A DNA stretch of 38,927 bases from positions 1 through 38,927 of the forward strand of contig CAJODY010000012.1 of NCBI GenBank assembly GCA_905233285.1, in the 5' to 3' direction. This document shows, in pieces, positions 1,365 through 20,598 of this stretch. Origin of the DNA: an uncultured Bacteroidaceae bacterium. GTDB lineage: Bacteria; Bacteroidota; Bacteroidia; Bacteroidales; Bacteroidaceae. The notes under the pieces were generated by a model that saw only the letters and a program-made list of their open reading frames with translations, made no database searches and was not told where the DNA came from. The position numbers and the translations under genes are program-made. The number at the start of each line of letters is the position of its first letter. Position 1 is the stretch's first letter.

Positions 1365-2352
1365 ATGGGCGATATAATGAAATATCAGAATGCGGTGGAG
1401 ATGGCTGGGAGGCAATTCATCAGTCGCAACTGATGGAAATGCATATTGAGGAGCGTTGGGGGAGAAAATTCTTCTCCGGTAGAAAATCAAATAGTTCCCC
1501 AAACTGAGGGACAATTGCCAGCACAAATTCTGCCACAAGTTGGAGCAGAATTATTCTCCATTCCTTGGGGACATCACAAGTATATCATAGATAAATGTTC
1601 GTCCGACCCTGACAAAGCCCTTTTCTATGTGCGCCAAACGCTAGAGAATGGTTGGAGCCGTGCTGTATTGCTCAATTGGCTGGACAGCAACCTCTATGAG
1701 CGACAAGGAAAAGCGATTACCAACTTCAAAGCTACTTTGCCAGATACCAATAGTGATTTAGCGCAGGAAATCACCAAGGATCCTTATAACTTTGCCTTTG
1801 CAGGAATCACAGGTAAATACAATGAGCGGAAATTGAAGGATGCCCTCTTGACCAACATCACACAGTTTCTGGTAGAGTTGGGTACGGGCTTTGCATATGT
1901 CGGCAAAGAATACCGTTTGCAGATAGGAGAAACAGAGAATTTCATCGACCTGTTGTTCTATAACCTGCGACTGCGCTGTTATGTTGCAATCGAGGTAAAG
2001 ATAGATAAGTTCGATTCCCGTGACATAGGGCAGTTAGGAACGTATGTAACGGCTGTGAACCATTTGTTGCGCGATGAACAGAAAGACAATCCCACAATAG
2101 GTTTGTTGATATGCAAGAGCAAGGACAGTACGCTGGCACAATACGCTTTAGAGTCTAGCAGCCAGCCGCTTGGCATTTCTGAGTATGAACTACAGAAACT
2201 TTATCCGGCTCAGTTGGAAGGCACTATGCCTACAGTTGAGGAGTTTGAAAGTAACCTGAAAAAGCTTGTCACCTCGGACGAAAGCCCTGCCGCCAAAGGA
2301 GGAACTGCAACGCGTATTTGAGGAGAGTAGCCGGAAGGAGGAAAAGGAGTAA
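1365..2352 (+). pseudogene. DUF1016/YhcG-type PD-(D/E)XK nuclease gene, interrupted
   Basis: The central 1434-2320 region is clearly a DUF1016-family protein. It shows SIPWGHHKYIIDK, NGWSRAVLLNWL, DPYNFAF and the catalytic FIDLLFYN...AIEVK (D and ExK of the PD-(D/E)XK fold). The N-terminus is damaged. Reading from ATG 1365 gives a short stretch (MGDIMKYQNAVEMAG) that hits an in-frame TGA at 1431. The segment up to IPWGHH is only about 65 residues, where family members have well over 100, so the DUF1016_N part is largely deleted. Downstream of 1433 no ATG is available, only a TTG at 1446. Near 2280 the frame slips: the annotated frame ends GGTATRI, while the neighbouring frame reads LPPKEELQRVFEE and stops at 2352. 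These proteins are often linked to restriction or defence loci; no such partner is nearby. Confidence 0.65.
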
Positions 2353-2722: not shown

Positions 2723-3544
2723 CTACTCCACCCATTTCATAACCCTGATGCTTACTTCGTAAAGCAAGTATAAGGGGATAGTAACAAGAATTAACGTCAT
2801 CAAATCAGGTGGCGTGATAATGGCTGCTACAAGCATAATGACAATAAATGCATGCTTACGATATTTGGAAAGAAGCTCAGAAGTAATAACACCCATCTTT
2901 CCAAGGAAATAAGCAATAACGGGCAATTGGAATACTATCCCCATGACCAGTGTCAACGAAGCAAAGGTAGAGATATAAGAATCGAGCGTAATGTTGCTTG
3001 TCACCTTTGTAGAAACGCTATAAGTACCTAAGAAGCGAAAAGAAATAGGAAATAGTATAAAATATGACATCAGCACGCCGAGGATAAACAGCACATAGAT
3101 AATCCCTGCCACCTGTACAGAATACTTTCGCTCATTTTCATAGAGAGCTGGCGATATGTAGCAGAACAATTCATAGAGGATATAAGGGGACGCTCCGAGC
3201 AAGCCAAGATACACTGCCGTCGTGATATGTGTCATAAACTGACTTGACAAATCGGTGGCAATCATTTCAACATGAAACTCGTCGAAATGAAAATCCAAAC
3301 CTATTGACTGGATAGCTGACTCTATCCAGCGATAGGTGCAGAAATCCCACTCACTCGGTGCAAGCAATAAACTCCATGTGGAGTCCTTAAAATAGAACAC
3401 CACTATGGAGATAATGCCGGCAACAGCAAGAATGCGGAAGAGCATTTGGCGGAGTACTTCCAGATGTCCGCCAAAAGTCATCTGATTCGGATTGGAATTA
3501 CTTTCCTGCTCCGTTGGCTTCTTTGCGTTCCGCTTCTGCTTCAT
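2723..3544 (-). CDS. tatC: Twin-arginine translocase subunit TatC
   Basis: TatC is the polytopic inner-membrane receptor that binds twin-arginine signal peptides and, with TatA, moves folded proteins across the membrane. The 273-residue frame shows MTFGGHLEVLRQ (family: hLxELR-like N-terminus) at 22-33, the conserved periplasmic/TM block ASPYILYELFCYISPALYENERK, and about six hydrophobic segments ending LYLLYEVSIRVMKW. The start used here (3544) overlaps tatA by 47 nt. The internal ATG at 3481 would remove the overlap, leave 16 nt between genes and begin exactly at the family's usual N-terminus, so it is a serious alternative. It is the last gene of the radical SAM/precursor operon. No tatB is present, so this is a minimal TatAC system. 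Confidence 0.93.
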   Translation of the reverse strand: MKQKRNAKKPTEQESNSNPNQMTFGGHLEVLRQMLFRILAVAGIISIVVFYFKDSTWSLLLAPSEWDFCTYRWIESAIQSIGLDFHFDEFHVEMIATDLSSQFMTHITTAVYLGLLGASPYILYELFCYISPALYENERKYSVQVAGIIYVLFILGVLMSYFILFPISFRFLGTYSVSTKVTSNITLDSYISTFASLTLVMGIVFQLPVIAYFLGKMGVITSELLSKYRKHAFIVIMLVAAIITPPDLMTLILVTIPLYLLYEVSIRVMKWVE

Positions 3545-3719
3545 CCTTCATCTCTTCCTGTTTAGATTCTTCAAGCGGTTCGTTCATGCCCTGCTTGAAA
3601 CTCTTAACACCTTTGCCTAAGCCTTTCATAAGCTCAGGCACTTTCTTCCCACCAAAAATGAGCAATGCTACACCTGCAATAAGCAGTAATTCTGTTGTTC
3701 CAATAAACAAAAGTGTCAT
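3498..3719 (-). CDS. tatA: Twin-arginine translocase subunit TatA
   Basis: TatA forms the translocation channel or membrane-thinning oligomer of the Tat pathway. From ATG 3719 the 73-residue protein reads MTLLFIGTTELLLIAGVALL, then IFGGKKVPELMKGLGKGVKSF. That is one short N-terminal transmembrane helix, the FG hinge and the amphipathic helix with PEL, followed by an acidic tail (EESKQEEMKDEAEAE). The frame extends 30 codons upstream, but that part is not TatA-like, so 3719 is chosen. It lies 138 nt downstream of the second precursor gene, on the same strand, with no recognisable TAnnTTTG promoter between them. Co-transcription with the precursors is therefore likely. No second Tat component gene (tatB) is seen. 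Confidence 0.93.
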   Translation of the reverse strand: MTLLFIGTTELLLIAGVALLIFGGKKVPELMKGLGKGVKSFKQGMNEPLEESKQEEMKDEAEAERKEANGAGK

Positions 3720-3857
3720 GATACGATTTTGATTATTTTTGATTTCTTTGTTGATGTCCAAGTGCCGTTCTCTGAAGAATTCTGCTTGGTACTTTAAAAC
3801 AAGAAACAATATTACATTATTTCATGACTCCCTAGATTGTATTCAATTCCTATTTTA

Positions 3858-4139
3858 TTACTTAGAAGTAGCATCTGAATAGTTTTGATAGTTATGATAA
3901 TTCCTGTAGTCTCTATAATTACCATAATTATAATAATCCTTATGATTTGAATAGTTATCATAATTTGTATAATCATTATAACACCTATCAACATATTTAT
4001 TGTCTACATAACCATCTGAATCCCTTGCCATTATGCTCCCATTGGGAAAAATTGATGCAACGGCAGCAACCATAGCTGTTTGAGCCATTCTTTTGAGTGC
4101 CTCTCGCCTGGAAATATTTTCCTTTTGTTTCATATACAT
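3858..4139 (-). CDS. Precursor peptide B: Tat signal plus Y-x-N/D triplet array
   Basis: This 93-residue protein (or 91 from the in-frame ATG at 4133) has a twin-arginine signal: ENISRREALKRM with RR at 11-12, a hydrophobic segment at 19-31 and a likely cleavage at SIMA|RD. The mature part is almost entirely period-3: two scattered YVD units (44-46, 49-51), one cysteine (53), then twelve contiguous triplets at 54-89: YND YTN YDN YSN HKD YYN and YGN YRD YRN YHN YQN YSD. It ends ATSK. One triplet has His in place of Tyr. Middle residues vary freely while Y and N/D are fixed, which is what a modifying enzyme that reads a three-residue motif would select. Its sister gene (precursor A) is 60 nt upstream; tatA follows. 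I infer a RiPP-like precursor; a structural low-complexity protein is the alternative. Coding was checked at nucleotide level. Confidence 0.75.
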   Translation of the reverse strand: MYMKQKENISRREALKRMAQTAMVAAVASIFPNGSIMARDSDGYVDNKYVDRCYNDYTNYDNYSNHKDYYNYGNYRDYRNYHNYQNYSDATSK

Positions 4140-4199
4140 AGATTTTTGAAATTCTTATTTAAATTATATTATTATTTCTACATAGCACATTCCAATTTT

Positions 4200-4460
4200 T
4201 CAATGGCAGTCAACATAGTCGCCATAATTACTATAGTTATGGTAATTTGAATAGTTTTCATAATTTGTATAGTTACTATAGTCACCATAATTTTTGTAAT
4301 TATCATAGTTTTGATACTTTTCAGTTGAGTTGCTATAGGCAATTGGATTGTTTGCCAGTGCACTCATCCCAGGGAATACAGATACAGCTGCAAAAGCCAA
4401 AGCTGCTTTCGACATTCTTTTTAAAGCATTGCGTCGGGAAATTTTCTCTTTTGTTTCCAT
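4200..4460 (-). CDS. Precursor peptide A: Tat signal plus Y-x-N/D triplet array
   Basis: This 86-residue protein has the leader KEKISRRNALKRM (RR at 9-10), a hydrophobic stretch AALAFAAVSVF at 19-29, and a signal peptidase-like SALA|NN site. After YSN (42-44) and STEK, residues 49-84 are twelve uninterrupted triplets: YQN YDN YKN YGD YSN YTN and YEN YSN YHN YSN YGD YVD. The C-terminus is CH, giving a single cysteine (85) directly after the array. The leader is nearly identical to that of precursor B (K-E-x-I-S-R-R-x-A-L-K-R-M), while the middle triplet residues differ. An AGGA-type ribosome site lies about 11 nt before the ATG. The stop codon of the SPASM maturase gene lies only 26 nt upstream. 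Proposed role: substrate of the three upstream enzymes, exported folded or cross-linked by TatAC. Confidence 0.78.
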   Translation of the reverse strand: METKEKISRRNALKRMSKAALAFAAVSVFPGMSALANNPIAYSNSTEKYQNYDNYKNYGDYSNYTNYENYSNYHNYSNYGDYVDCH

Positions 4461-4486
4461 AATAAAGTTCCTTTTGAGATTAATAA

Positions 4487-5581
4487 TTACGTGTATTTAA
4501 GACCTGTTATTGGTTCAAAGTATTTCTTTAAGAAATATTTAGTAGAATAGCACCATTCAGACTTCATTTGTATATCTCCTTTAACATTCCATCCATCCAA
4601 AGGACAACCTCCATGACAAATGGTAAAATATTCACAGCCTTTACATTCTCCATTCAATAATACTTTGTCTCTTTCCTGAAGTTTTTTTCGATACGGATGA
4701 TTAAAAGCTTCTTCTATTGAGATGTCTTTAATATTACCGATGTTGAACAAGTCCCACTCAGAGGATCTTCCACAATGGGATAATTCTCCAGAAGGGCCTA
4801 TATAAAGATGTGAGTAGGCACAATTAGAATCACTACAAACAAGTCCTTCATTTGTTTTGGTATACTTCTCATAATATGATTCAAATGGTTCAATACGGTT
4901 TAATACCTTTCGCTTCATCCACCACTCAGGACAAATCTGACCCAGAAAATCTGCAAACTCCTTGGCAGAGATTAACACATTATTAGGATCCTCGTGATTA
5001 ATACTATATACAGCATGAATGTTAAACCCTCTACAGCAAGAAAAGTTATGAAGAAGATTAAACACTTCTAAAGGTTTGTCCAAAACTTGTCGTGTGACAA
5101 CATAGATAAACCCCCAGTACATGTTATTCTTTTCAAGAAGTTCAATGCCTTTGAAAAAATTCTCATTATATAGTTTGCTATCTCTACTTTTTCCAAGGCC
5201 TCTTATGCCTTTGTACGGTTCAAATGATGTTCCTATCATAGTCATTCCCATCTCTTTAAAAACATCAATTAAATCCTGATTAATAAGAGTTAGGTTCGAT
5301 TGAACATTGAAATCAATTCGTTCACGAGTTGAAGTACAATGATTCTTTAAGAAATCTAAAACCCTTCTATAGAAATGGCTACCTACTATGCAAGGTTCTC
5401 CTCCATGCCATATTATCATCATTCTTTCATTAGGGAAAGCTGATAGATAATCATGCACTTTTGATAGCACTAACTCCAGCAAGTCATATGTGATTGTTAG
5501 TGGCTTCTTCCTCCTAATCACATTGCAATATATGCAATTTGAATTACAGGCTTCGGTCTCCTTGAATATTATTGTTGGCAT
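4487..5581 (-). CDS. Radical SAM/SPASM peptide maturase
   Basis: This 364-residue enzyme has the radical SAM cluster motif CNSNCIYC at residues 12-19, a GGEP motif (WHGGEPC), and a full C-terminal SPASM domain with CSDSNC, then C-x2-C-x5-C-x3-C (CKGCEYFTICHGGC), then a final EWC. SPASM radical SAM enzymes reduce SAM to a 5'-deoxyadenosyl radical and commonly modify ribosomal peptides or activate sulfatases in trans. The adjacent precursor genes favour peptide modification. The start at 5581 is chosen over an upstream ATG at 5701 because MPTIIFKETEACNSNC is the usual distance ahead of the motif. It also places the ATG one base after the previous gene's TGA (TGATATG), implying translational coupling. 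This is the best candidate for the triplet cross-linking enzyme. Confidence 0.85.
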   Translation of the reverse strand: MPTIIFKETEACNSNCIYCNVIRRKKPLTITYDLLELVLSKVHDYLSAFPNERMMIIWHGGEPCIVGSHFYRRVLDFLKNHCTSTRERIDFNVQSNLTLINQDLIDVFKEMGMTMIGTSFEPYKGIRGLGKSRDSKLYNENFFKGIELLEKNNMYWGFIYVVTRQVLDKPLEVFNLLHNFSCCRGFNIHAVYSINHEDPNNVLISAKEFADFLGQICPEWWMKRKVLNRIEPFESYYEKYTKTNEGLVCSDSNCAYSHLYIGPSGELSHCGRSSEWDLFNIGNIKDISIEEAFNHPYRKKLQERDKVLLNGECKGCEYFTICHGGCPLDGWNVKGDIQMKSEWCYSTKYFLKKYFEPITGLKYT

Positions 5582-5582
5582 A

Positions 5583-6407
5583 TCAGTAAAGCATTTCGTA
5601 AATTGTTGACATGACTTCTTGACAATCTTCAAATCTATTATGATATACACCAGAACATATTTTAAAATTGGGACATTTACTGCATCTGTCTTCAGCATCA
5701 AAATGGTTATAAAATCTCAACTTCTTGTATTCCAATGAAATATTATCAAAATCAATCCGCGAGAGTTCTTCAATTGTCCTACCAATATGTTTTTTTTGTT
5801 CAAATTCACTTCTGAGATATATTTCCCCATCAGGTTCTATATGAACAAAGATATCTGGCGAATTAAAGTAGAATTTATTGATGTCCACATATCTGCTTTT
5901 GTCCCCAATTTCTTGTTGAATAAATCCAAAAGGTTCTATGTGAGCATGTGGTACAGGTGACAAATATGAGTATGTTGCAAGTTCAATAAAATCGTCTTTA
6001 TCAATATTTTTGTCGTTATCAAATTGTAATCCAGACTTGTACCCACATGAAGATAGAATCTTCAATAAGATTACAAGATCAGGAGTATCTACAGAGAAAA
6101 GATATGTAATAAAAGATGAGTGATTTTGCTTCCCAGATTGTTCCAAAGCTTTTATAACCGATAACATGTCTCCATTGAACATACAATTTATATACATGTT
6201 TACGGAAGGATTAATATTCATATCTAGTAGCGCCACAACATCGATGTTATTCAATTCGCACAGAATTGATATACATTGACTTTGCTCTTTCGCAATCTCT
6301 AATGCATTATGAATCTGGGCAGCATCCTCAACTCTTATTACAAAGCGATAGTTTGCAATGTTTAGTTTGGGATATAATTCAATGGGTATTATTAGAACTG
6401 GTTTCAT
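5583..6407 (-). CDS. Degenerate radical SAM-like partner protein
   Basis: The 274-residue protein lacks any CxxxCxxC motif, so it should not bind the SAM-cleaving cluster. Its C-terminal region resembles a radical SAM auxiliary segment: HIEPDGEIYLRSEF (beta-hairpin like that before SPASM cysteines), then C-x2-C-x5-C (CSKCPNFKIC) with another Cys 11 residues on (EDC). I read it as a decayed radical SAM/SPASM paralogue kept as a partner, by analogy with the pseudo-rSAM proteins known in other Bacteroidales peptide-modification clusters. It may present the precursor, since no separate RRE-type protein is present. Its ATG overlaps the previous gene's stop as ATGA, and its own stop abuts the next start, so the three proteins are probably made in fixed ratio. 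The function is inferred, not recognised. Confidence 0.65.
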   Translation of the reverse strand: MKPVLIIPIELYPKLNIANYRFVIRVEDAAQIHNALEIAKEQSQCISILCELNNIDVVALLDMNINPSVNMYINCMFNGDMLSVIKALEQSGKQNHSSFITYLFSVDTPDLVILLKILSSCGYKSGLQFDNDKNIDKDDFIELATYSYLSPVPHAHIEPFGFIQQEIGDKSRYVDINKFYFNSPDIFVHIEPDGEIYLRSEFEQKKHIGRTIEELSRIDFDNISLEYKKLRFYNHFDAEDRCSKCPNFKICSGVYHNRFEDCQEVMSTIYEMLY

Positions 6408-7363
6408 GATTTCTTATTTATTACGTGAGAGATACAACCGGCTGTACACACATTTTTTTTACGATAATTGCAGGATGTGCAACTTTCATAAATTCCTTCA
6501 TTATTTCTCATTTCATACATTTTTTTAGTATAGAAGTCGTTGATTTCGCGCATTGAATCGAACTCAAAAACGCTTCTTCTGTTGATGCTAGATAGAGGAA
6601 AACAACTCCATACAGACATGTCTGGACCAATATCTATGGCTGGACCGCATTTAAATTCAAGACGGCCATTAGACCAAAGAAACATTTCCCCCAATTGTTT
6701 TTCTGTGAAAATACACAAGGGGAAACCGCAATCAAAACCAATCTCAATATTCTCTTTCTTATATTTCTCATAGAAATACGATAGTCTTTCCGCTACTTTA
6801 GGGAAATCAACAGGAGGAATGCAATGGTTCGGTTGATTGGGAATGGGATGAGCCAAGCCGAGTCGAATATGATTCTTCAATTTATATTTTCTAATATATT
6901 CAATAAGGAAATCAAAAGAGAAATCCAATTCGTAGATATTAAAACTCAGATTAGTTCGTTCTCCAAAAGTTTCCAAGAATAGATTTACCTTGGTTAGTTC
7001 ATTAGCTGGAGATTTCGCAGGATCATTAACGTTACAAATAAACTGATAATTTAAATCTTTATCTGATAGTTCTTTTTTAATAACCTCAAATTTTTTGTCT
7101 GTCGTAATTCCACTAGTAAAGATTGATGAATGAATTCCTCTTTTGGAGAGATAATGAATAAACTCTGAAAAATGCGGATGAAGAAGTGGTTCCCCGCCTA
7201 ATAGAGAAATATGGTGATCTCCAGACTTTAAAATAAAGTCAGCAAGATAGATAAGATTGTCCCAAGAAAGCATATCTTTAGGAGATACCTCACCCATATA
7301 CTTTTGTGCAAAGCAATAAGGGCATGATCTTACACAGAGTTGAGTTAGAAGAACATTTGCCAT
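6404..7363 (-). CDS. Radical SAM protein with C-terminal SPASM-like cysteines
   Basis: This 319-residue protein opens MANVLLTQLC, with the cluster motif CVRSCPYC at residues 10-17 and the SAM-binding LLGGEPLLHPHF block. C-terminal cysteines occur as C-x14-C (CGPAIDIG to WSC) and C-x2-C-x7-C-x3-C (CTSC to CTAGC), indicating auxiliary Fe-S binding. It is the first gene of the operon. Two catalytically competent radical SAM proteins plus a degenerate one imply either two chemical steps or an enzyme pair acting on different triplets. It is AT-rich compared with the housekeeping genes from 12 kb onward, as is the rest of the operon, consistent with acquisition. It does not resemble anaerobic sulfatase maturases closely enough to prefer that call, and no sulfatase is nearby. 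Confidence 0.85.
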   Translation of the reverse strand: MANVLLTQLCVRSCPYCFAQKYMGEVSPKDMLSWDNLIYLADFILKSGDHHISLLGGEPLLHPHFSEFIHYLSKRGIHSSIFTSGITTDKKFEVIKKELSDKDLNYQFICNVNDPAKSPANELTKVNLFLETFGERTNLSFNIYELDFSFDFLIEYIRKYKLKNHIRLGLAHPIPNQPNHCIPPVDFPKVAERLSYFYEKYKKENIEIGFDCGFPLCIFTEKQLGEMFLWSNGRLEFKCGPAIDIGPDMSVWSCFPLSSINRRSVFEFDSMREINDFYTKKMYEMRNNEGIYESCTSCNYRKKNVCTAGCISHVINKKS

Positions 7364-14851: not shown

Positions 14852-16285
14852 CTACTCAATCATATTAGTTGCACCGCCTTTAGCTTTGAGGTATTTGGTG
14901 TAGGCGAGCAGGTAGTTGCAACGGGCATCGACGGCTGAGGCGCAGGCTTGTTGCCATAGGGTCTGAGCCTCGAGGTAGTCGGAGAGGGGTTCGACTCCGA
15001 CGTCGTACTGCTTGCTGGACATGCGCATGTTTTCTTCTGCCTGGAGCACGGATTTGTTGGTGATGGAGATTTCGAGGGCTGCTTCCTGCAGCTGGTTGGC
15101 TGCCTGAAGGAGTTCGAGCTGCATCTTCTCGTTGAGTTCTTCCTGTTCCATCTGGGTTATCTGGTATGCTGCCTTGGCTGAGCGTACTTTGTGCTGCCAC
15201 TCGCCGAAGTGAAAGAGTGGTATCTTGAGCATGACGCCGACGGTGGCTGAGCCGTTTTTCAGGAGTTTTTCGCCTAGGAATTTCACGCCGTTGACGTAGC
15301 CGTAGGAACCGAAGACGGCGAGGTTGGGCAGGAATTCGCTGCGGGTGAGCTTGACCTGCAGGCGTGCCATCTCGGTCTTGTCGTTCAGAAGGTCGTATTC
15401 TGGACGCTGGCTGATGTCAAGTGATGGGTCAACCATGGTGTTGTTATCGACAGGGATGTAGATGCCGTCGGTAGTGACGTCGATGCGCTGTGTGAGCGGC
15501 AGTCCCACTATCTGGGCGAGGTTCATCTGTGCCAGACGGTAGGCGTTGTCGGCCTTTACGATGTTGAGTTCGGCTTCGTTGAGTTTCACCTGTACTTTCA
15601 GGGCGTCGTTCTTGGTGCGCATGCCGTGACGTACGGCGCTCTCAACGTTTTTCTGCAGTTCTTCGAGCAGGGTTCTGTAGCTGCGTGCCACATCGCCCAT
15701 TTCCTTTGCCTTGATGCAGAGGACGTATGCCTGGTCGGTGTTGAGGAGGACTTCCTGTTCGGTGAGGCGCACTTTGTTGCGTGCCATGGATACTCCTACT
15801 TTGTTCATTTTATATCCGGCTGTTATCTTTCCACCGGCATAGAGGGGCTCAACGACGTTGATGCCTGCTGCGAAGATGTTGCCTATCTTCACTTCGAGCA
15901 TGTCATCGGGTATGGCAAAGCCTTGGGCTATGCTTTGCAGACCTGCTACGAGGGGTGTGTAGAGAGGGTTGGCGGCCAGCGAGGCGAGTACGCTCTTGGC
16001 GTTTGCTATTCCTCCTGCAAAGACACCTGCCATGTCGGAGTTGGGGGTTATCTTGCCTGTGTTGTAGAAGTCGGCTGCATAGACTTTGAAGTTTGGCAGG
16101 AAGTTGGTCTTCATCGCCTTGAGTTCGTATTCCTGCTTCTGAATGAGGAGACGTGAGGAAACGAGCGATTTGTTGTATTCGAGCGCTTTCTCGCGGCAGG
16201 CCTGAAGGGAGAGGGTCTCGGCACTGGCGGGCAGGATGGCTGCAAATGCTGCTATTATATATATAATGTGACGTCGCATAATCAT
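14852..16285 (-). CDS. TolC-family outer-membrane efflux channel
   Basis: The 477-residue protein begins with a signal peptide (MIMRRHIIYIIAAFAAILPASAE, cut at ASA|E). It continues with the repeated coiled-coil/beta-barrel pattern of the TolC family: LSLQACREKALEYNKSL, then ITAGYKMNKVGVSMARNKV, LTRSEFLPNLAVFGSYGY and QYDVGVEPLSDYLEAQTLW. It should provide the outer-membrane exit duct for the RND pump encoded just upstream. Its ATG overlaps the pump's stop by 4 nt (ATGA), so translation is coupled. Length and motifs are normal for the family. Substrate unknown. Confidence 0.92.
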   Translation of the reverse strand: MIMRRHIIYIIAAFAAILPASAETLSLQACREKALEYNKSLVSSRLLIQKQEYELKAMKTNFLPNFKVYAADFYNTGKITPNSDMAGVFAGGIANAKSVLASLAANPLYTPLVAGLQSIAQGFAIPDDMLEVKIGNIFAAGINVVEPLYAGGKITAGYKMNKVGVSMARNKVRLTEQEVLLNTDQAYVLCIKAKEMGDVARSYRTLLEELQKNVESAVRHGMRTKNDALKVQVKLNEAELNIVKADNAYRLAQMNLAQIVGLPLTQRIDVTTDGIYIPVDNNTMVDPSLDISQRPEYDLLNDKTEMARLQVKLTRSEFLPNLAVFGSYGYVNGVKFLGEKLLKNGSATVGVMLKIPLFHFGEWQHKVRSAKAAYQITQMEQEELNEKMQLELLQAANQLQEAALEISITNKSVLQAEENMRMSSKQYDVGVEPLSDYLEAQTLWQQACASAVDARCNYLLAYTKYLKAKGGATNMIE

Positions 16286-19200
16286 TTCACTTTAAAGAAG
16301 AGTGCGTAGAGCACGGGGATAAATATGAGTGTGATGAGTGTTCCGACAAAGAGTCCGCCCATGATGGTGACGGCAAGTGCGCCGAACATGGCATCGGGCA
16401 GGAGGGGTATCATGCCGAGGATGGTGGTGAGACTGGCCATCATGACTGGACGCAGACGTGATTTGGAGCTGTCGATGAGTGCTTTGCGAGGACGCACGCC
16501 CTGGCTTATCTGCAGGTTTATCTCGTCCATGAGCACTATACCGTTCTTTATCATCATACCTATGAGTCCGAGCACTCCCACTATGGCAACGAATCCGAAT
16601 GCCTTGCCGGAAAGGACTACCGACGGTATGACTCCGACGAGGATGAGCGGTATGCAGCAGAAGATGATGATTGGTTTCTTGAAGTCCTTGAAGAGCATGA
16701 TGAGGATGAGTATCATGATGATGATAGCCATAGGGAAGGCGTTGAATAGATACTTCATGGACTGGTCGCTGGCTTTCTTCTCTCCCTCCCATGTGAGGGT
16801 GTAGCCTGCCGGCAGTTCTATCTTTTCTATATCTGCAGCTATTGCCTTGCGTGCATCTTCGGTACCTATGCCCGGGCAAGGACTGCACTGGAGGCGCTGA
16901 GTGCGCTGTCCGTTGTAGCGGCACACGACGGGTTCTTCCCAAAGAATATCTACTCCGTTGGCAACCTGCAGGAGAGGTGTGGTCTTCGTAAGGGCACGGA
17001 TGATGTCGGCCTTGGTCAGGTTACCGGTAAAGAGCTGCTGTATGGTTCCACGATTGATATACTGCCCCAGACGCGGTGTGATGCTGAAGAGTTCGGCACC
17101 ATCGAGCCGTCCGACATCGTTGCCGTCGGGGTCGGTACATTTTACATATATGTGTTCGATGCGGCTACCGTCGTAGAAACTGCCGACAGGAATGCCACCG
17201 GTGTATGCCATGAGCGAGAGGGACACATCGAAACGCGAGAGTCCGCTGCGACGAGCCAGGGGCTGACTGTAATCTACGGAGAGCACGGGTACCTTGGGCT
17301 CCCAGTCGGTAGTGGGCAGGAATACCTTGTCGCTACGGTTGACTATAGCCATGGCGCTGTCGGTAAGACGGTGGAGGACTGCCGGGTCGGGACCATGGAA
17401 ACAGGCCTCGATGGGGTATTTCTTGTACATCAGGTTGTAGCGCTTGAACTTGACGTAGGCATCGGGGAACATGCGGTCGATTTCCTTCTGCAGTTCGTCG
17501 ATATGACTGACGAGGTCGGCTGGCGAGGTGAAGTCGATAATCAGTTCGCCATAGGCAATGGAAGGAGTCGGCATGCTGCGCACGAGGTTGTAGCGGCTCG
17601 GAGCACCACCCATCGATGCCGTGATGTGGGTGATGTAGTCCTTCTGCTTGAGGTAGCGCTGTATGGAGTCGAGGTCGGCTTCGGTCTGTGTGTAGTTGTT
17701 GCCTTCGGGCAGTTTGTACTCCATGTAGAGCTGGTCGTATTCCATATCGGGGAAGAAGGCCTGATTGAGGAATCGGTAGGAGTAGGCACTGACGAGGAAC
17801 ATGCCGATGGCTATGAAGACCATAAGCCAACGATGGCGAATGCCGTAGCGCAGTATGTTTTCGAGTACGGTGTATGCTTTTCCCTTGTACAGGTCGTCGG
17901 CAGGGGCGCTGTTCGTCTCGATTTGCTTCAGGTTGTCGGGAAGTGCCGAATGGTGTTTGCCCTGAGGCAGGAGCCAGCGGTCGGCCAGGATGGGTACATG
18001 GACGAGGGCCAGTATCCAACTGAGCATAAGCGATACGGCAATGACGATGAAGAGGTCGCGGACATAGACTCCTGCCGTGTCGGGACTGAGGAAGATGGGC
18101 AGGAAGGCGAGTATGGCTATCAGCGTGGCTCCGAGCAGGGGCATAGCTGTCTTCTTTCCTATCGCCGTGAGTGTCTCGAGTCGTGACTTGCCTCGTGAAT
18201 GGTCAACCAGAATACCATCGACGATGACGATGGCGTTATCGACAAGCATACCCATAGCAAGGATGAAGCTGGCAAGCGATACGCGCTGGAGCGTTCCGTC
18301 GAAATTAAAGAGTACGAGCAGCGAACCGAAGACGATTATGATCAGGCTGAGTCCGATGATGATACCGCTCTTCAATCCCATGAAGAAGACAAGGATGAAG
18401 ACTACGATGAGAACGGACTCGACGAGGTTTATCATGAATGTACTCAGGGCTGAGTTGACACGTTCGGGCTGGAAGAACACCTTATGGGTGGTGACTCCGG
18501 CCGGCAGACGGCTCTCCAGTTCCTGCATCTTGGCATCTACTATTTTTCCAATCTTCACGACATCGAAACTGGAGGAGCAGGCAATGGATATACCCAGGGC
18601 ACGCTCTCCGTCGTAGGACATTTCGTTGCGTGTCACACTTTCATATCCTTCGTATATTTTTGCTATATCCTTCAGGAGGAGCTGGTCGTTCTCGTGTCCC
18701 TGAATGACGACGTTGGAGATTTCTTCGACGCTGTTGAGCTTGTCGCTCACCGTGACACGTACCCTGCGGTTGCCGTTGTTGTAATATCCGGCATAGCTGG
18801 TGCTGTTCTGATTGTTGAGGGTCTGGATGACCTCGATAGGCATGACGCCGAGGTGAGTCATGCGGTCTTCGAGCAGTTCGATGTTGATACACTCGTTACG
18901 GCGACCATAAATGCTGACACGGGTCACACCCTCGATGTCGCCTATCTCGCGCTTAATCAGCTCGGCATAGTCTGCTAACTCATAGTCGCCCATTCCGTCG
19001 CCCGTCAAGGCGTAGAACATACCGAACACATCGCCGAAGTCGTCTTTCACTATCGACGCGGAGGCACCCTCGGGCATTACGCTCTGGGCGTTTGCTACCT
19101 TACGACGCAGGATATCCCATTCCTGTTCAATCTGAGCGGGTTTCGTGGTGGTCTTCAGTTCGACGGTTATAAGGCTCATGTCGGCATAGCTCTTACTATC

Positions 19201-19440
19201 CACATAATCGACCGAAGCCATTTCCCTGATGGATTTCTCCAAGGGGTCGGTAACCTCCAGTTCAACCTGATGAGCCGATGCACCCGGGTAGGTCGTGACG
19301 ACCATTGCCTGACGCACCTTTATCTCAGGGTCTTCAAGTTTGCTCATCGAGGAGTAGGCTACGATACCGCCTACCATCAGGCAGAAGACCAGGAAGTTGA
19401 CAAGGTTACGATTATCAAGTGCCCATTTACTTATGTTCAT
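16282..19440 (-). CDS. RND (AcrB-type) efflux pump, inner-membrane component
   Basis: The 1052-residue protein has the twelve-helix RND layout. TM1 is NLVNFLVFCLMVGGIVAYSS, and the porter domain includes YPGASAHQVELEVTDPLE. TM4 carries the proton-relay aspartates (MGMLVDNAIVIVDG), and the second half repeats the pattern (FVAIVGVLGLIGMMIKNGI). It exports drugs or other amphiphiles using the proton motive force and works with the adaptor (19437-20558) and channel (14852-16285). It overlaps the adaptor stop by 4 nt and the channel start by 4 nt. CusA-type methionine clusters are not evident, so a drug/amphiphile (HAE-like) class is more likely than metal export. Confidence 0.93.
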   Translation of the reverse strand: MNISKWALDNRNLVNFLVFCLMVGGIVAYSSMSKLEDPEIKVRQAMVVTTYPGASAHQVELEVTDPLEKSIREMASVDYVDSKSYADMSLITVELKTTTKPAQIEQEWDILRRKVANAQSVMPEGASASIVKDDFGDVFGMFYALTGDGMGDYELADYAELIKREIGDIEGVTRVSIYGRRNECINIELLEDRMTHLGVMPIEVIQTLNNQNSTSYAGYYNNGNRRVRVTVSDKLNSVEEISNVVIQGHENDQLLLKDIAKIYEGYESVTRNEMSYDGERALGISIACSSSFDVVKIGKIVDAKMQELESRLPAGVTTHKVFFQPERVNSALSTFMINLVESVLIVVFILVFFMGLKSGIIIGLSLIIIVFGSLLVLFNFDGTLQRVSLASFILAMGMLVDNAIVIVDGILVDHSRGKSRLETLTAIGKKTAMPLLGATLIAILAFLPIFLSPDTAGVYVRDLFIVIAVSLMLSWILALVHVPILADRWLLPQGKHHSALPDNLKQIETNSAPADDLYKGKAYTVLENILRYGIRHRWLMVFIAIGMFLVSAYSYRFLNQAFFPDMEYDQLYMEYKLPEGNNYTQTEADLDSIQRYLKQKDYITHITASMGGAPSRYNLVRSMPTPSIAYGELIIDFTSPADLVSHIDELQKEIDRMFPDAYVKFKRYNLMYKKYPIEACFHGPDPAVLHRLTDSAMAIVNRSDKVFLPTTDWEPKVPVLSVDYSQPLARRSGLSRFDVSLSLMAYTGGIPVGSFYDGSRIEHIYVKCTDPDGNDVGRLDGAELFSITPRLGQYINRGTIQQLFTGNLTKADIIRALTKTTPLLQVANGVDILWEEPVVCRYNGQRTQRLQCSPCPGIGTEDARKAIAADIEKIELPAGYTLTWEGEKKASDQSMKYLFNAFPMAIIIMILILIMLFKDFKKPIIIFCCIPLILVGVIPSVVLSGKAFGFVAIVGVLGLIGMMIKNGIVLMDEINLQISQGVRPRKALIDSSKSRLRPVMMASLTTILGMIPLLPDAMFGALAVTIMGGLFVGTLITLIFIPVLYALFFKVK

Positions 19441-20558
19441 AGCATTCCTCCTACGTTACTTTTTGAAGCTGGCTGCATAACCTCTACTTTCTGTCCGTCG
19501 GTCAGACAGTGTGCTCCTGTGCGGACTACCTTCTCCCCTACTTTCAAGCCATGCGACACGGTAACAGTACCATCAGGATTGATGACTCCGACTTTCACTT
19601 CACGGATTCTTACTACGTTCTCTTTCTCGTCGAGAACAAACACATGAGGTGTCTCGTCGTCAGTAATCAAGGCTGAAGCCGGTATGATGATGTCGCTGGA
19701 ATGCGGGTCTTCGTCGAGATTGGCTACCAGTCTGTTGCCATAAACCATTGTTGACATGCCGGCTGTGATGCCCTTATGGCTGGCTGCATCCTTGAACTGC
19801 AGGAATACGGGGTAAAGCTGATTGGCATTTGCCTCGACACCGGTTCTGACCACTTTGAGTGGGAACTGGCGGGCACCCGTCACATTGAATGTACAATAGA
19901 AATCGGTATATTCATCGAGATGGAGAAACTCCTTTGCGGGCAGGTCTATCTCAATCTCTACCCTGTCAGATGTGCTCAACTCGACTACCGGCAGACCAGC
20001 AGCCACGGCTTCTCCACTCTCACGTAGCTTACGTTTAACGAATCCCGACATGGGAGCAAGGAGACGTGTGTCGTTGAGTTGGTTGGTATGATTGCCTAGT
20101 TTCTGAGTTATCTGCTCCAGTCCGTAACGAGCCTTGTCGTAGTTCTGGGCTGTAGTGCTACCATCCTGATACATAGCGATGACACGCTCGGCATCGGCTT
20201 TTATCTGCTCGTATTCAGCCTTTGTGGCATTGAGCTGTAGGCGATAGTCACGGTCGTCCATGACGGCTATCACCTGTCCGGCACGCACATGGTCGCCTTC
20301 CTTTACTAATACACGACTGATGGTACCACTGACACGAAATGCGACGTTTACCATATCAACCGAACGGGTAAGTCCGGAGAAAGAAGCAGGAGGCAAAGCG
20401 CTGGCATCCCTGCACTCTGCGATATTCACTGCTTTCGGAGTTTCCTCGCTTTGCTTTTTCCCACCGCTACAGCTGAACAGAATGATTGCTCCACAAAGCA
20501 CTGCGAAGCAAATTACGATATGTCTGGAATGAAACATATCATTTACATTATTTCCCAT
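19437..20558 (-). CDS. RND efflux periplasmic adaptor (membrane fusion) lipoprotein
   Basis: This is an HlyD/AcrA-type adaptor bridging pump and outer-membrane channel. It has a lipoprotein signal (CFAVLCGAIILFSC|SGG), a biotinyl-lipoyl half (VLVKEGDHVRAGQVIAVMDD), a short alpha-helical hairpin, the second half (TRLLAPMSGFVKRKLRESGE) and the beta-barrel (DRVEIEIDLPAKEF). Three in-frame ATGs exist, at 20582, 20558 and 20537. 20582 lies only about 10 nt from the predicted transcription start. 20558 (MGNNVND) is chosen for its leader length; 20537 (MFHSRH) would also give a good signal peptide. It is the first gene of the efflux operon, with a consensus promoter upstream. Confidence 0.9.
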   Translation of the reverse strand: MGNNVNDMFHSRHIVICFAVLCGAIILFSCSGGKKQSEETPKAVNIAECRDASALPPASFSGLTRSVDMVNVAFRVSGTISRVLVKEGDHVRAGQVIAVMDDRDYRLQLNATKAEYEQIKADAERVIAMYQDGSTTAQNYDKARYGLEQITQKLGNHTNQLNDTRLLAPMSGFVKRKLRESGEAVAAGLPVVELSTSDRVEIEIDLPAKEFLHLDEYTDFYCTFNVTGARQFPLKVVRTGVEANANQLYPVFLQFKDAASHKGITAGMSTMVYGNRLVANLDEDPHSSDIIIPASALITDDETPHVFVLDEKENVVRIREVKVGVINPDGTVTVSHGLKVGEKVVRTGAHCLTDGQKVEVMQPASKSNVGGML

Positions 20559-20598
20559 TTTCTCTGTTGTTTGTTTGTACATTATTAATTTACGGCTG

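Follow-up and report, generated by a model that had tools for sequence, protein, structure and literature searches.

Peptides matured by radical SAM enzymes are generally thought to leave the cell through ABC transporters provided with their own proteases. The GG-Bacteroidales system (TIGR04148/04150) unites, in Bacteroidales, a radical SAM enzyme, a pseudo-radical SAM partner and a Gly-Gly export leader, and the His-Xaa-Ser system (HxsB/HxsC) combines two paired radical SAM enzymes with a repeat peptide of period three; we know of no link between the latter and the Tat pathway. Our survey of the literature, in which subscription journals were thinly covered, found no published natural example of Tat export among such peptides. 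The authors of PMC5686179 mention that their preliminary attempts to use Tat with lanthipeptides failed. As for the chemistry, YxdB is described in PMC11002830 as linking Tyr C3 to the beta-carbon of Asp.

The window studied here, a 38,927-nucleotide stretch of DNA from an uncultured Bacteroidaceae bacterium of gut type, contains a rare operon whose radical SAM enzymes probably staple the tyrosine repeats of two small proteins, which a Tat gate of their own would then export. All seven predicted genes were confirmed on the minus strand, from position 7363 to 2723, and follow the order that an earlier note on this DNA had given: radical SAM gene, SPASM-tail partner, radical SAM/SPASM gene, precursors A and B, tatA and tatC. 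The close spacing of the enzyme genes described in that note is equally borne out by the coordinates, the radical SAM gene (7363-6404) and the partner gene (6407-5583) sharing 4 nt and a 1-nt gap separating the latter from the SPASM enzyme gene (5581-4487). Further downstream, tatA (3719-3498) and tatC (3544-2723) overlap as well. Promoter and terminator scans of the window gave no excess; Bacteroides-type -33/-7 matches numbered five against 0.8 expected, none of them directly upstream of the operon.

The first radical SAM protein (319 aa, above the Pfam cut-off) carries its CxxxCxxC motif at C10/C14/C17, and eight further cysteines, invariant in all seven aligned homologues, display what appears to be a SPASM-like spacing. 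In the partner (274 aa) the radical SAM motif CxxxCxxC is absent, its cysteines C242, C245, C251 and C262 are invariant in 7/7 aligned sequences, and a SPASM match of 23.3 bits remains below the cut-off of 27. A homology between this partner and the first radical SAM protein was rejected on comparison, and a homology with the CXXX maturase TIGR04119, as the cause of the parallel layout of the two systems, was dismissed for want of a profile match. The third enzyme is a putative radical SAM/SPASM peptide maturase (364 aa, above the Pfam cut-off) whose CxxxCxxC and eight SPASM cysteines are invariant in 7/7 aligned sequences. All seven members of its family match the DynA, DarE, OscB/GrrM, AmcB and YhhB models, for the window enzyme always below cut-off. 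None of the curated triceptide maturase families is reached by this enzyme, be it GrrM/OscB (119.5 of 310 bits), AmcB (98.2 of 425), YhhB (81.5 of 445), XyeB (53.7 of 450) or FxsB (56.3 of 370), and no specific curated NCBIfam peptide-maturase model attained its cut-off with the window proteins or their relatives. By comparison, a radical SAM RiPP-type system outside these curated maturase models is well supported, but Tyr-x-Asp cross-linking as such was already known from YxdB. AlphaFold models of the SPASM enzyme (pLDDT 30.5) and of the partner (pLDDT 39.2) were unusable. Viral contigs searched with the SPASM pair yielded two weak partial matches, and a plasmid search returned 211 records, every one below 60% identity.

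Precursor A (4200..4460, minus strand) and precursor B (3858..4139, minus strand, with an alternative start at 4133) both possess an S-R-R-x-A-L-K motif of Tat type (SRRNALK and SRREALK, respectively) together with a hydrophobic stretch, and 13 Y-x-N/D triplets; precursor A ends in DCH. The N-terminal twin-arginine motif and the period-3 Tyr-x-Asn/Asp arrays announced by the earlier note are thus present in both proteins, and the curated Tat-signal models TIGR01409 and TIGR02811 fell below cut-off or gave no match. Chance and simple DNA repetition can be set aside as origins of the arrays: 0 of 20,000 same-letter shuffles attained the longest in-frame runs (12 triplets in A, 7 in B), and the run of 12 in precursor A employs nine different triplets, the first six all differing. 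As a control, viral contigs were scanned for six Y-x-N/D triplets, which gave 84 stretches. The 80 loci examined contained 80 stop-free arrays, in 75 of which the first six triplets were of no more than two kinds; no array showed an RR motif close to the N-terminus, and tblastn with a threshold of 1e-5 matched none of the seven window proteins to these loci.

The same seven-gene cassette was found, in a different genomic context, in a Bacteroidales genome from sheep rumen (L003). Of the 26 triplets aligned between the precursor orthologues of these complete cassettes, 25 retain Tyr and all retain Asn/Asp, with 4 N/D swaps, while 18 differ in the middle residue. Judged from this alignment, the Tyr and Asn/Asp positions are under constraint. 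Ten further genomes, four of them outside the class of the window, carry this enzyme trio, whole or as far as it can be seen, bringing the trio loci to 12, several on contigs that end early. Precursors are visible at 11 of these 12 loci, and an RR motif of the form RR-x-A-L/I-K precedes the Tyr-rich array in 13 of the 14 visible precursors, the remaining one (L132) having KK instead. Beyond the two full cassettes, most arrays read YY(N/D/S) or YSS rather than strict Y-x-N/D, and one (L159) has a Tyr every six residues. In some relatives the repeat stands before an Lcl_C domain, an arrangement that points to a stalk; in one relative, the Lcl_C-bearing repeat protein is a retroelement-diversified target. 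A linked tatAC was seen at only two of the 12 loci and tatA alone at a third. The neighbourhood comparison suggested by the earlier note upheld the co-occurrence of the trio with predicted Tat-signal repeat peptides in distant genomes, and showed a linked tatAC at few of the loci. The association between the maturase trio and predicted Tat-signal Tyr-repeat peptides is well supported as a conserved one.

We infer that the trio acts in the cytosol on the Tyr-x-Asn/Asp arrays of both precursors, most likely by forming a bond between Tyr C3 and the beta-carbon of the Asn/Asp two residues on, as in the three-residue cyclophanes of triceptide chemistry. The N-terminal twin-arginine signal would direct export and perhaps serve as a leader too. 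The stiffened product would then pass through the TatAC of the operon, a route open to folded or cross-linked chains, unlike Sec, and would form a structural element, a rod or a stalk, outside the membrane. To this whole account, from Tyr-Asx cyclophanes made in the cytosol to dedicated TatAC export and a structural role, we assign a probability of roughly 0.6. Radical SAM maturation and Tat export could also go with another modification, such as a Tyr-Tyr or Tyr-ether link, epimerisation or oxidation at Asn/Asp, complemented by glycosylation where a GT9-like glycosyltransferase gene is present (7/12 trio loci). Besides this gene, the YY and YSS arrays of the relatives would suit such a reading, as would the first radical SAM protein, which matches mainly general models (viperin, MoaA, PqqE) in its N-terminal part, so that two different chemistries may act. 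However, the strict Y-x-N/D register and the N/D-only exchange of the window and sheep-rumen arrays fit C-beta chemistry at i+2, and several cross-link formers figure among the SPASM models to which all family members match; we regard a different modification as unlikely, though worth keeping in mind.

The export step assumed in the cyclophane account draws on the Tat pair itself. Both proteins score above the Pfam and NCBIfam cut-offs (for the latter, TatC 166.1 of 132.7 bits and TatA 61.6 of 53.9 bits), and the tatC of the operon is the second of two in the window genome. In our tree, the window and sheep-rumen TatC are sisters (support 100/98) inside a TatC2 clade of 11 proteins (support 100/99), and seven of its nine other members, from the window's genus, lie within CXXX-repeat radical SAM systems. 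Across this genus, TatC2 occurs in 8 of 10 genomes that have a radical SAM repeat-peptide operon and in 2 of 35 that do not (Fisher P 8.5e-6). These sequence comparisons lend good support to a specialised second copy, related to Tat pairs that belong to a different radical SAM system for repeat peptides, and place a second-type TatC in common with the CXXX systems. The "private" character ascribed to the pair by the earlier note agrees with the second, RiPP-linked tatC of the window genome but is not established in the sheep-rumen genome, in which no tatC besides the linked one was seen.

Sec or the general Tat machinery might otherwise export the peptides, the linked tatAC serving other cargo and being a neighbour by accident. 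At nine of the 12 trio loci, some of them truncated, neither a linked tatC nor a linked tatA is visible, one or more tatC genes occur in each trio genome, and the KK-bearing precursor lacks the twin arginine. Such a reading is nevertheless improbable in view of the motif shared by nearly all precursors, of the way TatC2 follows the distribution of repeat-peptide operons within the genus and of the position of both cassettes' TatC inside that clade. That the precursors are plain secreted Tyr-rich structural proteins, with radical SAM enzymes acting elsewhere, for example on sulfatases, is most improbable: the single best model of the SPASM enzyme is indeed the anaerobic sulfatase maturase TIGR03942, but its 137.2 bits lie far under the cut-off of 349.45, the residue after the third SPASM Cys is Gly271 (Gly in 7/7) where 4k37 has an Asp that we take to be catalytic in that maturase (plain sulfatase maturation was rejected on these two grounds), and a Tyr-rich precursor adjoins the trio at 11/11 loci with that side visible.

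Going further than stapling followed by dedicated Tat export, these loci might tentatively be seen as a new RiPP class, in which Tat-exported, radical-SAM-stapled Tyr-repeat rods serve as rigid extracellular stalks, a RiPP-dedicated Tat is exchanged modularly with CXXX systems, and distant relatives bear Lcl_C heads, retroelement-diversified in at least one genome; we put this broader proposal at somewhat less than even odds. If a Tat pair is indeed reserved for cross-linked peptides, it would explain the passage through the membrane of a chain that has been modified and stiffened beforehand, and would offer a natural means of putting stapled peptides on display. It would also suggest that the role of some radical SAM RiPPs is that of surface materials and not of small bioactive molecules.

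Among the known systems, the HxsB model scores 70.5 of 370 bits on the window proteins, and the His-x-Ser repeats of that system are absent. The enzyme pairing of the GG-Bacteroidales system resembles that of the window but the leader type differs, and TIGR04148/04150 gave no match above cut-off to the window proteins. Triceptides (YxdB, OscB/GrrM) share with the window a SPASM radical SAM enzyme and an aromatic-x-Asn/Asp motif, according to PMC11002830, the likeness to YxdB being drawn from this description rather than from sequence. A radical SAM/SPASM maturase likewise stands beside the precursors here, and the triplets of each offer an aromatic-x-x core with a C-beta acceptor at i+2. The window differs from triceptides by its two radical SAM enzymes and SPASM-only partner, its long arrays, its twin-arginine N-termini and its linked TatAC. 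A search of the window's genome with TIGR04115 at 1e-60 gave no match, and precursors A and B are devoid of a Cys array. The CXXX-repeat system (TIGR04115/04116/04117/04119) relies on Cys-x-x-x arrays and other enzyme families, whereas the window has Tyr-x-Asn/Asp arrays and a partner without profile similarity. To our knowledge, the TatC clade does not belong to the definition of that family. The two systems nonetheless have in common a repeat precursor bearing a Tat-type signal, a radical SAM enzyme with a SPASM-tail partner and a TatC of one clade, the latter seen with seven CXXX loci of the window's genus.

The seven genes of the operon (minus strand, window 7363 to 2723) follow the order, strand and spacing described in the earlier note: a first radical SAM protein, a partner (P0002), a radical SAM/SPASM enzyme, precursors A and B, tatA and tatC. 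TatA, TatC and both radical SAM proteins exceed the Pfam cut-offs; the middle protein P0002 lacks a CxxxCxxC motif and matches the SPASM domain weakly (23.3 of 27 bits). With an E-value limit of 1, searches assigned neither precursor to a named RiPP family, and Pfam reported no RRE domain in the window proteins. Each precursor carries 13 Y-x-N/D triplets, 12 of them in a single unbroken run in the core of A and with a longest run of seven in B, and none of 20,000 shuffles reached either run length. A YhcG/DUF1016-type PDDEXK nuclease gene adjoins the operon (window 1446-2321), and an ordinary RND efflux set of outer membrane efflux protein, AcrB-type pump and membrane fusion protein lies at 14852-20582.

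A single scan of GTDB genomes, which detects close relatives only, yielded one relative, a sheep-rumen Bacteroidales MAG (JAFXSR010000017.1, locus L003) with all seven genes in the window's order and in a different genomic setting. Identity with the window is 91% for the SPASM enzyme, 85% for the first radical SAM protein, 81% for TatC, 68% for the partner and 64% for precursor A. When the 26 triplets of precursors A and B were compared one by one with their L003 counterparts, the tyrosine proved conserved in 25, the exception being the first of B at the array edge, and the third position was Asn or Asp in all 26, with four swaps between the two; the middle residue differed in 18. Selection thus holds Tyr and Asn/Asp while leaving the middle residue rather free, a constraint that, judged from these sequences, would fit the demands of an i to i+2 cross-link.

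The trio formed by the first radical SAM protein, the partner and the SPASM enzyme represents a rare family that extends beyond these two genomes. A search for the SPASM enzyme at E 1e-40 came up empty in all 398 further genomes sampled within the window's family, as did one for the partner at 0.001 in the remaining 44 genomes of the window's genus. The first radical SAM protein was found in six other genomes of an order sample (392; E 1e-15), four of a phylum sample (394; E 1e-30), three of the six of family f13, one of them new, and four of the 86 of family f136, the same four as in the phylum sample. Ten of these genomes hold the trio or its visible part, giving with the window and L003 a total of 12 loci (L131-L135, L157-L161). 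Genome G548 (L136), with distant paralogues only, was left out; its cluster of three radical SAM proteins (L136:5695-10398) shows 22-32% identity to the first radical SAM protein, and neither a SPASM partner nor a repeat peptide was recognised there. By blastp the partner is detectable at nine trio loci, and at L157, L158 and L160 an ORF of 153-154 aa occupies its place. At 11 loci the SPASM gene can be seen (the L159 contig ends before it), and at 11 a precursor can (the L135 contig ends). Close to the SPASM gene, seven of the 12 loci carry a GT9-like, heptosyltransferase-type glycosyltransferase gene, assigned by PF01075 in L131 (4892-5779), L133 (5856-6755) and L134 (3634-4509) and by similarity in L157, L158, L160 and L161, which suggests that relatives glycosylate their repeat peptide; the window operon has no such gene.

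The association of the trio with Tat-signal repeat peptides, described for the window in the earlier note, extends across these loci: 13 of the 14 visible precursors carry an RR motif (S/N/T/E-RR-x-A-L/I-K type; L132 has KK), and a Tyr-rich region follows the signal in all 14. The array types vary, from mostly Y-x-N/E/Q/K in L132 and a mixture of YYN and YSYSD in L134 to YY(N/D/S) in L131, L133 and L161, chiefly YSS in L157, L158 and L160 and one Tyr per six residues in L159. The strict Y-x-N/D array is therefore a trait of the window and L003, with L132 coming close, and does not hold family-wide.

At L157, L158 and L160, all of f136 and thus of the window's phylum but another class, the Tat-signal precursors (L157:6788-7600, L158:4269-5144, L160:7160-8131) continue after the Tyr repeats with about 150-200 aa containing an Lcl_C domain, identified by a PF07603 scan in L157 and L160 and by near identity to L157 in L158. 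We take the Lcl_C fold to be lectin-like. Apart from indels that alter repeat length and a tight cluster of changes in the final ~130 bases, the genes of L157 and L158 hardly differ. A reverse transcriptase locus in the L158 genome (L167) has an AAC-rich template repeat (1062-1213) immediately upstream of the RT, and of the 27 positions at which the L158 tail departs from this template, 23 are adenines in the template (P 1.3e-9). The bias is weaker for L157 (27/43) and L160 (22/44); against the L164 template, from L157's own genome, the counts are 22/45 and 17/34, and no template turned up at the RT loci retrieved for the L160 genome. One precursor is thus well supported as a diversity-generating retroelement target, the 3' end of L158 probably being diversified in trans, and the Tyr repeat of the Lcl_C precursors looks like a stalk beneath a variable head. 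Precursors A and B have no Lcl_C-type head.

The description of the Tat pair as private was only partly borne out. The window's genome does hold a further tatC (L001), 43% identical to the operon's and adjoining a ribosomal-protein-S1-like ORF (named by eye), but tatAC is linked at only two of the 12 trio loci, the window and L003 (L133 has a linked tatA), and no tatC other than the linked copy was found in the L003 MAG, a genome of unstated completeness. No trio genome lacks a tatC. TatC is present in 39 of the 45 genomes of the window's genus; ten, the window's own included and fragments in G316, G183 and G197 left out of the count, have a near full-length copy at least 69% identical to the window's TatC, P0007 (TatC2), and all ten also hold a TatC of the 42-50% type. 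Seven of the other nine TatC2 copies belong to CXXX-repeat operons whose CXXX precursors bear Tat signals (loci L137-L143; TIGR04115, TIGR04116 and TIGR04119 in L137, the rest by similarity); a tatA ORF was called at three of these seven loci. No CXXX-repeat operon was seen beside the copies in L144, at a contig start, and in L145, where the matched stretch contains a stop, and these copies (L107/L144 and L108/L145) are possibly remnants. In a maximum-likelihood tree of 42 TatC, the window, L003 and nine genus copies form one clade of 11 (100/99) with the window and L003 as sisters (100/98), and long branches meet at flagged nodes, including the join of this clade with the rest. TIGR04115 was found in 9 of the 45 genus genomes. 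The operon (TIGR04115 or the window's) and TatC2 occur together in eight genomes, the operon alone in two, TatC2 alone in two and neither in 33 (P 8.5e-6, only a guide, given the relatedness of the genomes and the incompleteness of some). The operon-only genomes are G197, with a TatC2 fragment elsewhere, and G396, where no TatC was found.

Most likely, the trio would act in the cytosol to cross-link the Tyr arrays, after which the RR signal would pass the stiffened product to Tat, by which folded cargo travels (PMC10924467), and the product would work outside. No report of Tat-exported radical SAM RiPPs was found among the matches listed in a literature searched mostly without subscription papers, and the words 'Tat' and 'twin' are absent from the main text of a Bacteroidales RiPP survey (PMC10352776). 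As far as can be seen, the Tat coupling, the trio and the family are new.

The chemistry falls within known types. The enzyme alignments comprise seven members, those of f136 and L161 lying outside that of the SPASM enzyme. CxxxCxxC and eight further cysteines are invariant in all seven first radical SAM proteins, but this enzyme matches mainly general models, in its N-terminal part. All seven SPASM enzymes keep CxxxCxxC and eight SPASM cysteines in the arrangement of anaerobic sulfatase maturases, but have Gly where the maturase 4k37 has Asp after the third SPASM cysteine. The models matched by all seven include, best first, DynA, sulfatase maturase, DarE, DarW, TIGR04083, GrrM/OscB, AmcB and YhhB, none of them over cut-off for the window enzyme, and several represent formers of cross-links at aromatic motifs. 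Among known systems, YxdB makes a C3(Tyr)-C-beta(Asp) bond, OscB bonds Trp with the C-beta of an Asn or Asp and MscB bonds Phe with that of a Ser (PMC11002830), and Aro-Xaa-Asn is the motif of strained cyclophane RiPPs (PMC9062424).
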